47,554 bases of DNA from an uncultured Pseudomonadales bacterium (GTDB lineage: Bacteria > Pseudomonadota > Gammaproteobacteria > Pseudomonadales > Balneatricaceae). Position 1 is the first letter of the stretch. Every line of letters begins with the position of its first letter. The position numbers and the translations under genes were made by a program. The stretch lies in contig CALKFY010000132.1 of assembly GCA_938084925.1 (NCBI GenBank), positions 1 to 47,554 on the forward strand. The letters are read 5' to 3'. The notes under the pieces are model-generated. The model was not told the DNA's origin. It was given only the letters and a program-made list of their open reading frames with translations, and did no database searches. Shown piece by piece: positions 5,560 through 8,270 of the stretch.

Positions 5560-6777
5560 CTAGTCGGCGTGAGTGAATTTACTCTGCCAAAGCGCACACC
5601 TTTGCTCGTCACGGGCAGCATAAATGCTTAGTACTTTAGGTAAATCTAAGCTGCTTTGCTGGCCCTTGTCTTCGCCTAGGGCAACCATTTGCATGGTGTA
5701 CCAAGCGGTAACACCACCTTCTGGGTTGGTGGCAAAACGTGGAAAAATAGGGTCTGAGTTTGAGCCTTCTAGCCAAGCTTTTGGCAGCGCAGGGTCAAGA
5801 ATCATGACTCGGGCTAGCCCCACCATGTCCACATCACCATTAGCAATGGCTGCTTGTGCTTGCGCTTGGTGTTTAAAGCCACCGGTACTCATGAGCGGTA
5901 TTTGGGTCAGCTGCTTGGCGCGGCGCGCAAAGTCTAGGAAGTAGGGGCCGCCTTCAGCTTGGCCATCGGACGCGGCTTTGGCGCCCGGGAAATAGGTGCC
6001 GCCACTGATATCAATCAGATCTACAGAAGTCTGGTCGAGCATGCTAATGGCTTGCAGTGCGTCTTCTTCTGTAAGGCCTCCCTCTAGCAGATCTGTTGAA
6101 TTAATACGCATACCAATGGGGAAGGTTGCGCCTACTTGCTGACGCATGGCATCAACTATTTCTAAGACAATACGCATACGTCCTTCGATGTTACCACCGT
6201 ACTCGTCTGCGCGATGGTTAAACAGAGGTGACAAAAATTGACTCAGTAAGAAACCATGGCCCGCGTGTAATAGCAAACCGGTAAAGCCAACGTGTTTGGC
6301 AATGCCAGCGGCTTGCGCATAAGCGTATGGTAGGGCCTTTATATCCGCCATACTCATGCCCGCGCATTTTAATTCTGGCAGATCTAAGGCCGAAGGACCT
6401 TTAGCTTGGCTGATGGGTGCATGAGACAAAGCACCGGCATGCCCCAGTTGTGCCCACAAGTGAGCACCATCTACAGTGGCACGAGAGGTCAATTGCTTTA
6501 GAGCTTGGTGATCTGACTGTGGCCCCAGTACTAGGTTGCCTGGCTTTTCTGCAAAGCCTGGGTCAATTTGTACTTCACCAATAATAGACAGAGCAATGCC
6601 ACCATGGGCCCATATCTCATAGAGGCGTGTTTGTTGTGGGGTAGGGTCACCTTGGCCATTGCCTAGGGAATCGGACATGGGTGACTTGACTAAACGATTC
6701 TTCAAGACAGCACCGCAAGGCAAGGTTAATGCTTCGTCTAGGTTCGTTGCGTTGCTGGATTGATGGGCATTATTCAT
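5560..6777 (-). CDS. Old-yellow-enzyme family NADH:flavin oxidoreductase
   Basis: A 405-residue single-domain FMN TIM-barrel protein of the OYE family, which reduces activated C=C bonds such as enones, quinones and nitro compounds. Visible motifs are LKNRLVKSPMSDSLGN (25-40), WAQLGHAG (108-115), LHAGHGFLLSQFLSPLFNHR (170-189), the RADEYGG segment, DLIDISGGTYFPG and PLMSTGGFK (phosphate binding). His171 and His174 match the substrate-anchoring pair, but the usual proton-donor Tyr is Phe176. There is no C-terminal FeS/FAD half, so it is not a full 2,4-dienoyl-CoA reductase. A perfect inverted repeat 26-46 nt upstream of the start is shared with the neighbouring arsR-like gene, so this reductase is very probably its target. 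Confidence 0.88.
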   Translation of the reverse strand: MNNAHQSSNATNLDEALTLPCGAVLKNRLVKSPMSDSLGNGQGDPTPQQTRLYEIWAHGGIALSIIGEVQIDPGFAEKPGNLVLGPQSDHQALKQLTSRATVDGAHLWAQLGHAGALSHAPISQAKGPSALDLPELKCAGMSMADIKALPYAYAQAAGIAKHVGFTGLLLHAGHGFLLSQFLSPLFNHRADEYGGNIEGRMRIVLEIVDAMRQQVGATFPIGMRINSTDLLEGGLTEEDALQAISMLDQTSVDLIDISGGTYFPGAKAASDGQAEGGPYFLDFARRAKQLTQIPLMSTGGFKHQAQAQAAIANGDVDMVGLARVMILDPALPKAWLEGSNSDPIFPRFATNPEGGVTAWYTMQMVALGEDKGQQSSLDLPKVLSIYAARDEQRCALWQSKFTHAD

Positions 6778-6803: not shown

Positions 6804-6823
6804 ATATCGAAATTTATCGATAT
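6804..6823. promoter_or_regulatory. Operator of the reductase gene (ArsR-type site)
   Basis: A perfect inverted repeat ATATCGA-N6-TCGATAT. The same 20-bp site occurs with only two central differences at 7174-7193, directly in front of the ArsR-family gene. It lies 27 nt upstream of the reductase start codon. Confidence 0.75.
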
Positions 6824-6858
6824 GTAGTTTGTTAAAAAAAGTAAGCGTACTTGCAGGC

Positions 6859-7173
6859 TTACTTTTTGTTAGCTAATAGCTCTGTGGCTATGGCATCCAT
6901 AAAGGCTTGGATAGCGGCTTCGTTGCGGCGGTAGAAGGTCCATTGCCCGTGGCGTTCCGAATCTACTAAACCAGCTTGCTTGAGCTTGCTCATATAGCTG
7001 GAGATGGTGGATTGGGAAAGCCCGGCCTTTTCCTGGATATAGCCAATGCAAACACCTTCCTCATTGGCATGCTCAGGTAGGGCAGGCGGGAAATTGGAAC
7101 GATCTTTTAGCCAAACAATAATCTTCAAACGAATAGGGTTACTGAGGGCATTGATAATAGTTTCTGTATTCAT
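6859..7173 (-). CDS. ArsR-family transcriptional regulator
   Basis: A 104-residue winged-helix repressor of the ArsR/SmtB family. The opening IINALSNPIRLKIIVWLKDR is the family hallmark, and the recognition helix is LSQSTISSYMSKLKQAGLV followed by a wing (RHGQWTFYRRN). There is only one cysteine (Cys42, in EGVCIGYIQEK), so it lacks the CxC metal sites of classical arsenic or zinc sensors. A thiol-reactive or quinone/enone signal is more likely, given the adjacent old-yellow-enzyme gene, but that is inference. The start codon directly abuts its own operator and no Shine-Dalgarno is visible, which suggests a very short or leaderless mRNA. Transcribed in the same direction as the reductase, 81 nt upstream of it. 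Confidence 0.88.
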   Translation of the reverse strand: MNTETIINALSNPIRLKIIVWLKDRSNFPPALPEHANEEGVCIGYIQEKAGLSQSTISSYMSKLKQAGLVDSERHGQWTFYRRNEAAIQAFMDAIATELLANKK

Positions 7174-7219
7174 ATATCGAACTATATCGATATGCTATTC
7201 GAAAATCAAGATTTGACAA
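7174..7219 (-). promoter_or_regulatory. Promoter and operator of the ArsR-family gene
   Basis: The operator ATATCGA-N6-TCGATAT (7174-7193) touches the ATG. On the minus strand a TTGTCA (7214-7219) and TAGCAT (7192-7197) are separated by 16 nt and would start RNA only about 10-14 nt before the ATG. The -10 overlaps the operator edge, which fits autorepression. Confidence 0.55.
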
Positions 7220-7365: not shown

Positions 7366-8088
7366 CTAGTCGCTGACTTTGTTCTTGGCTTTTGCCCAAG
7401 GATCAAATGTGGCTGAGCTAGTGCTAGGCTTAGATGCTGGTGTTGCCTTAGGCTTGTCGCCATAAGGGCTTGCATGATCTCTTTGTGGACGCGCGGGGCG
7501 GTCGCTATATGATCCTTTTTCGGAGCGGCTGTCAGAACGGCTATCTGAGCCAGAACGCTTGCTATCACCATAGGGGCTTTTGCTCTTGCCGTAAGGAGAG
7601 TCACTGCTCGCTGCTGAAGAGCCGCCGTATGGGCTACCTTTAGCCTTATCGCCACCACGCTTTTTAGCGTTGTTGCCTTTGAAACCGTTGCCCTTAAAAC
7701 TGTGGCGTTGATTGTCATGCTCGGCTGCTTTCTTTTCACGCTTTTCTTGTAAGCGTGCTGCATCTTCTAGGCTCAGTTCAGCAGGTTCACCAGGCTGATG
7801 CTCGTCAGGCACGATACGGTCACGTGGCGCGATGGAGAATTCTTGTGCCGTGGCTCTTGGCAAGTTCTTGAACCGATATAGATAAAAAGCTTCCACCTTT
7901 TCTCGGGCCCATTCGGTCTTCTTTAAAAACTTAAAGCTGGAGTCCACACTGGGGTTGGTATTAAAGCAATTCAGCTGCAAATAAGCGTACAAAATTTCAA
8001 AACCATAGTGGTCAACGATTTCCTCTACCATGGTTTTTAAGCCTAGACCGTGTAGAGGGTTATTCTGGTAGTTGATTTCACTACTCAT
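7366..8088 (-). CDS. VF530-domain protein with SPYG-rich tail
   Basis: A 240-residue protein. Residues 1-75 form a VF530 (DUF2132) domain, recognisable from NPLHGLGLKTMVEEIVDHYG, LNCFNTNPSVDSSFKFLKKT and WAREKVEAFYLYRFK. The domain is small, helical and thought to bind DNA. Normal VF530 proteins stop at about 80-90 residues. Here about 150 residues follow that are rich in Ser, Lys, Asp, Gly and Pro and contain four SPYG units plus RSDSRSDSRS repeats, so the tail is probably disordered. Function is unknown; nucleic-acid binding with a condensate-like tail is a guess. The ATG at 8088 is chosen over a TTG at 8103 because family members start close to it; neither has a strong Shine-Dalgarno. Confidence 0.8.
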   Translation of the reverse strand: MSSEINYQNNPLHGLGLKTMVEEIVDHYGFEILYAYLQLNCFNTNPSVDSSFKFLKKTEWAREKVEAFYLYRFKNLPRATAQEFSIAPRDRIVPDEHQPGEPAELSLEDAARLQEKREKKAAEHDNQRHSFKGNGFKGNNAKKRGGDKAKGSPYGGSSAASSDSPYGKSKSPYGDSKRSGSDSRSDSRSEKGSYSDRPARPQRDHASPYGDKPKATPASKPSTSSATFDPWAKAKNKVSD

Positions 8089-8270
8089 AGTTTTTACTCG
8101 CAAAAAGGTGATCCGAAAGTTATTCGGTAATGACGGGCATTATACCCTGACTGGCCAGCTTTAATCTGCTTTGCTAGACAAAATTGTCAGTTGATAAGTA
8201 AGTTTGCATATTTCTCTAAATAAGTATATTCTAATATATTGAATTATTTACTAGAATTAAGAGAGTAGAA

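Follow-up and report, generated by a model that had tools for sequence, protein, structure and literature searches.

Two near-identical palindromes at a regulator gene and a reductase gene

An ArsR-type regulator gene and the old-yellow-enzyme (OYE) family reductase gene that follows it are each preceded by nearly the same palindrome. This raises the question of whether the regulator represses both genes through these sites, and what signal would release it. The locus lies in a 47,554-nucleotide stretch of an uncultured Pseudomonadales bacterium (contig CALKFY010000132.1), referred to as the window, and comprises the following features:

5560 to 6777, minus strand: OYE-family reductase, 405 amino acids, active-site motif HAGHGF, start at 6777 (PF00724, E = 2.5e-46)
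6804 to 6823, strandless: predicted operator 2, a 20-bp palindrome 27 bp upstream of the reductase start (exact match)
6836 to 6867, minus strand: terminator-like hairpin that closes the regulator gene and carries a U tract (fold -11.1 kcal/mol, z -1.86)
6859 to 7173, minus strand: ArsR-type regulator, 104 amino acids, single Cys42, start codon at 7173 (scores above cutoff for PF01022 and NF033788; the model has an ArsR fold)
7174 to 7193, strandless: predicted operator 1, a 20-bp palindrome abutting the regulator start codon (exact match)
7181 to 7209, minus strand: sigma-70-like regulator promoter TTGATT-N17-TATAGT, predicted by consensus scan, its -10 box within operator 1

Positions 7366 to 8091 of the window encode a VF530-domain protein (PF09905, N-terminal) whose tail is long, of low complexity, and rich in SPYG motifs.

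The pattern ATATCGA-N6-TCGATAT occurs exactly twice in the window, as ATATCGAACTATATCGATAT at operator 1 and ATATCGAAATTTATCGATAT at operator 2. All 14 fixed bases match without mismatch in both copies, and the copies are identical at 18 of 20 positions, so that the shared palindrome described in the initial annotation is confirmed in place and identity. Among 100 dinucleotide shuffles of the window, zero exact matches were found (expectation, 0.00). The genome scan proposed alongside it was carried out with a mismatch pattern on the 2.38-Mb draft genome (87% complete); it returned no exact copy beyond these two and three further places with two mismatches. The flanks of two of these places (C32 and C95) show no layout resembling that of the window.

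The regulator is an ArsR-family protein with one invariant cysteine

The regulator has the winged-helix DNA-binding domain of the ArsR/SmtB superfamily and belongs to it. It scores 29.2 bits against PF01022 (HTH_5; cutoff, 22) and 60.6 bits against NF033788 (HTH_metalloreg; cutoff, 55), and its AlphaFold model is a winged helix (pLDDT, 90) for which ArsR-family structures rank on top in structural comparison (SrnR, Z 13.4; RexT, Z 10.2). Cys42, the sole cysteine of the protein, is invariant in 81 of 81 close and 6 of 6 distant sequences. A metal-binding cysteine pair or cluster is absent, Cys42 alone being conserved in the 81 sequences. With only one cysteine, a classical metal sensor was rejected as far as cysteine-based sites are concerned, in line with the original expectation. 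Residue 16 (7126 to 7128), which falls in the helix 2 motif NPxRR, is Arg in 99% of close orthologues but Leu in the window regulator, a deviation that is counted against the model proposed below.

Operator 1 overlaps the predicted promoter of the regulator gene

A scan of a genome collection yielded 80 orthologous regulator loci (65 to 76% identity) in alpha- and gammaproteobacteria. Operators were counted in 67 loci (66 and the window), with 14 degraded Psychrobacter paralogues set aside; the loci are kin by descent, and the counts are not independent. In 65 of the 67, the best operator occupies positions -20 to -1, beginning exactly 20 bp upstream of the regulator start codon. Because 64 of these operator 1 sites served to build the operator matrix, their high scores arise partly by construction; what is independent in the evidence is the constant position of the site and the outcome for operator 2.

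A TTGAC-like -35 element is conserved at about -35 in the orthologues, at the matching distance. Since the -10 box lies inside operator 1, transcription is predicted to start at or next to the ATG. No Shine-Dalgarno sequence is present in the 20 bases before the regulator start in 66 of 67 loci; in the exception, L044, the operator is shifted to -47 and a TTAGGAG ribosome site is present. With operator 1 covering the -10 box of a TTGAC-type promoter, the regulator transcript is probably leaderless.

In the 14 Psychrobacter paralogues (L041, L049, L051, L054, L055, L057, L060, L061, L064, L066, L067, L071, L073, and L100), which have no adjacent OYE, the operator is degraded and the left half alone is kept (GTATCGATATCACACATTTT). 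The next gene is mostly a convergent SulP-like transporter. Directly after the regulator of L049 (G056) lies a site-2-like palindrome, ATATTGAAATATCTAGATGT, possibly the relic of a lost OYE, and one genome (L060, G058) additionally has an intact regulator-operator-OYE locus. Distant targets of these orphan regulators were also sought; extra sites that are conserved close to a transglycosylase-like gene did not add up to a coherent picture, and this line was abandoned.

Presence of operator 2 follows the regulator and the gene layout

Where the reductase stands apart from the regulator, defined as an OYE alignment starting more than 50 bp past the regulator stop, 51 of 54 loci have a second operator; in tight operons the count is 0 of 13 (Fisher p = 2e-11, kinship of the loci ignored). 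The arrangement of regulator, operator, and reductase is kept across many marine bacteria; the conservation in relatives for which a check had been suggested thus extends to both sites. In the window, the terminator-like hairpin closing the regulator gene would explain why the OYE needs its own site. The consensus scan did not report this hairpin, probably on account of a loop that exceeds the permitted length. It also gave no promoter match next to operator 2 in the window, which is counted against the proposed model. In many alphaproteobacterial loci, the right arm of operator 2 reads CGATGGAG about 10 bp upstream of the OYE start, so that operator 2 seems to be merged with the ribosome site.

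Some loci carry tandem or shifted operators before the OYE: half sites in direct orientation at operator 2 of L047 and L079, and overlapping ATATCGAG repeats with 8-bp spacing in L059 (3353 to 3388).

Two full-length OYEs of the same subfamily (56 to 60% identity), from same-genus genomes and without an adjacent regulator, have no operator. Their best operator scores are -5.6 and 0.6, compared to 20 to 35 for operator 1 in the orthologues. Given this absence and the 51 of 54 against 0 of 13 above, operator presence tracks the regulator and the gene layout. The fixed position of operator 1, the presence of operator 2 according to layout, and the absence of sites without a regulator strongly support the autorepression and reductase control that the palindromes had first suggested. 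On this comparative evidence, functional operators, autorepression, and control of the reductase are, taken together, very likely.

The reductase belongs to an OYE clade without the active-site tyrosine

With 158.9 bits against PF00724 (Oxidored_FMN; cutoff, 27), the reductase is a member of the OYE family. Its active-site His pair (H-x-x-H; His171 and His174 in HAGH) is conserved across the aligned loci. The Tyr after this pair is missing from the window OYE; among 65 aligned OYEs, the position holds Phe in 50 and Tyr in 15. This Tyr is typical of ene-reductases, is not needed for OYE family membership, and serves as the proton donor in enone reduction by OYE1 and YqjM. In a quick tree, the regulated OYEs form two well-separated clades. 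That of the window carries HAGHGF, while the other clade and the YqjM-like enzymes have Tyr at the Phe position. The tree, which was built to see if the window OYE was native or foreign to its genus, gave this enzyme no resolved place. No description of the Phe-type clade was found in a literature search that was not exhaustive. Because the Tyr donor is replaced by Phe, quinones or nitro compounds may suit the enzyme better than enones, and the enone signal suggested in the initial annotation is weakened by this clade-wide replacement of a Tyr that is conserved in YqjM-like OYEs.

Layout and enzyme clade are partly confounded, since 10 of 14 Tyr-type enzymes lie in tight operons and 46 of 49 Phe-type enzymes stand apart. 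The exceptions in both directions follow layout: L036, L077, and L095 are Phe-type, tight, and without the site, and L035, L059, L070, and L079 have the other enzyme type, stand apart, and carry the site.

Relation to known regulators of OYE-family reductases

In the NemR-NemA system of Escherichia coli, a thiol-sensing repressor lies beside an OYE; NemR is of the TetR family, whereas the window regulator is ArsR-type. The NemA model gives the window OYE 99 bits, far under its cutoff of 403. A NemR-like logic with an unrelated regulator family had been proposed for this locus. Logic of this kind has precedents, since PyeR-XenB and CyeR-Cye1 are ArsR-type repressors of OYEs; both regulators were compared to that of the window by description rather than by sequence.

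In the 2012 study by Mac Aogain, PyeR reportedly lacks a metal-binding motif and has a palindromic motif conserved among its orthologues. The accounts of PyeR (PA4354) in PMC7950407 and PMC10134825, which describe the primary study (Mac Aogain 2012, pmid 22820840), present it as an ArsR-family repressor of its own pyeR-pyeM-xenB operon in P. aeruginosa. Like this autorepressor, which shares its operon with an OYE-family reductase, the window regulator is ArsR-type, without a cysteine metal site, OYE-linked, and preceded by a palindromic operator at its own gene. The PyeR operon differs in containing an MFS transporter and XenB, whereas the window locus has no transporter, an OYE of another clade, and two operators.

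CyeR of Corynebacterium glutamicum is similarly paired with an OYE, being described as an ArsR-type redox-responsive regulator of Cye1 (Ehira 2010, pmid 20110293; PMC8960804). However, it has two cysteines seven residues apart, and the window regulator has one: position 35, seven before Cys42, is an invariant His. RexT of Nostoc sp. PCC 7120 (PDB 7txm, 7txn) shares the ArsR fold (rmsd, 2.2 over 81 residues), and its reactive cysteines sit where helix 3 begins, near the wing. It differs in its vicinal Cys40-Cys41 pair, thioredoxin target, and adjacent thioredoxin gene, where the window regulator has a single cysteine and an OYE neighbour. Its sequence similarity to the window regulator is weak (E = 0.36), and the offset of this weak profile match aligns Cys42 with Cys40 rather than Cys41.

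Literature searches found no direct description of a single-cysteine ArsR electrophile sensor, of an ArsR-alkene reductase pair, or of a leaderless ArsR autorepressor. Judged from sequence, what appears new here is the regulator subfamily, the leaderless operator-embedded promoter, the two-operator layout, the Phe-type reductase clade, and the one cysteine.

A proposed two-operator switch and its signal

We propose that an ArsR-type repressor would bind as a dimer to both of these closely matching 20-bp sites. Its binding to operator 1 would mask the -10 box and the transcription start of the regulator promoter, which is probably leaderless, and would thereby give self-repression; binding to operator 2 would repress the reductase, which would require its own promoter since regulator transcription would stop at the terminator-like hairpin. 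Cys42 lies on a short strand immediately ahead of helix 3; its modification would free the repressor and induce both genes, and the induced reductase would help to clear the signal. As a whole, this explanation is likely.

A single conserved cysteine beside reductase genes suggests a covalent thiol signal, and a thiol or electrophile signal is plausible. That Cys42 is the sensor is somewhat favoured by its invariance; a structural role for it is possible and is counted against the explanation. An electrophile or quinone, rather than an oxidant, as the natural signal is a tentative reading that we place a little below even chances.

The same two-operator repressor could instead sense oxidation (by HOCl or peroxide, or as a mixed disulfide or persulfide on Cys42), with the reductase acting in the oxidative-stress response. 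HOCl induces the pyeRM-xenB operon, and cells in which this operon is deleted are sensitive to the oxidant (PMC7950407); in CyeR and RexT, cysteines mediate a response to oxidative stress (PMC8960804). RexT and CyeR use two cysteines, however, and the one present here would have to form a disulfide with another molecule or subunit; moreover, the partner genes reduce organic compounds and are not peroxidases. We consider an oxidant signal possible but rather doubtful. It is unlikely that a non-covalent small molecule, perhaps a reductase substrate, releases this repressor while Cys42 is structural: invariance also extends to many residues near the 25-35 loop (RSNFPP, LPEH), and these could make up a pocket, but a cysteine invariant down to about 45% identity amid mostly varying positions would be unusual if purely structural. 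Although bacterial promoters often hold AT-rich palindromes, a chance repeat or the sites of an unrelated regulator are highly improbable and were rejected, because the shuffles were empty, site position and presence track the regulator gene across alpha- and gammaproteobacteria, and the same-genus OYEs without a regulator have no site.

Relatives beyond the close orthologues and implications

Cys42 is retained in plasmid-borne relatives of the regulator from three phyla, mostly at 45 to 50% identity. In L141 and L142, paired ATATCG...CGATAT sites precede the regulator and an annotated zinc-dependent alcohol dehydrogenase family gene; L146 has two such sites, the second without an annotated gene directly after it. 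Other distant relatives have alkene reductase or LLM-class flavin oxidoreductase genes in their vicinity, and Pseudomonas relatives with 46 to 48% identity to the window regulator adjoin XenB-like OYEs and also retain the invariant cysteine.

The regulator relative on a Klebsiella pneumoniae plasmid (L144, NZ_CP069904.1) lies between an alkene reductase gene, which it follows and which has operator-like sites upstream, and the frmR-frmA formaldehyde genes. On plasmid pPGA1_262 of Phaeobacter inhibens DSM 17395 (L138), both OYE clades follow the regulator in a row; operator 1 is present, and the first OYE is preceded by an operator-like site. An orthologue in this strain shares the layout of the window locus.

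These relatives may point to a widely distributed family of ArsR-type thiol switches that share one cysteine, a GVC motif, and an ATATCG...CGATAT operator and control changing NAD(P)H reductases, an idea we advance with considerable reserve. The branch in the window would combine a leaderless, operator-embedded, autoregulated promoter with a Tyr-less OYE clade probably reducing non-enones such as quinones. If true, the locus would amount to a compact switch, responsive to electrophiles or oxidants, whose operator hardly varies and which could serve as a biosensor part, and the link of one conserved cysteine to several unrelated reductases would make one-cysteine sensing in ArsR proteins directly testable.
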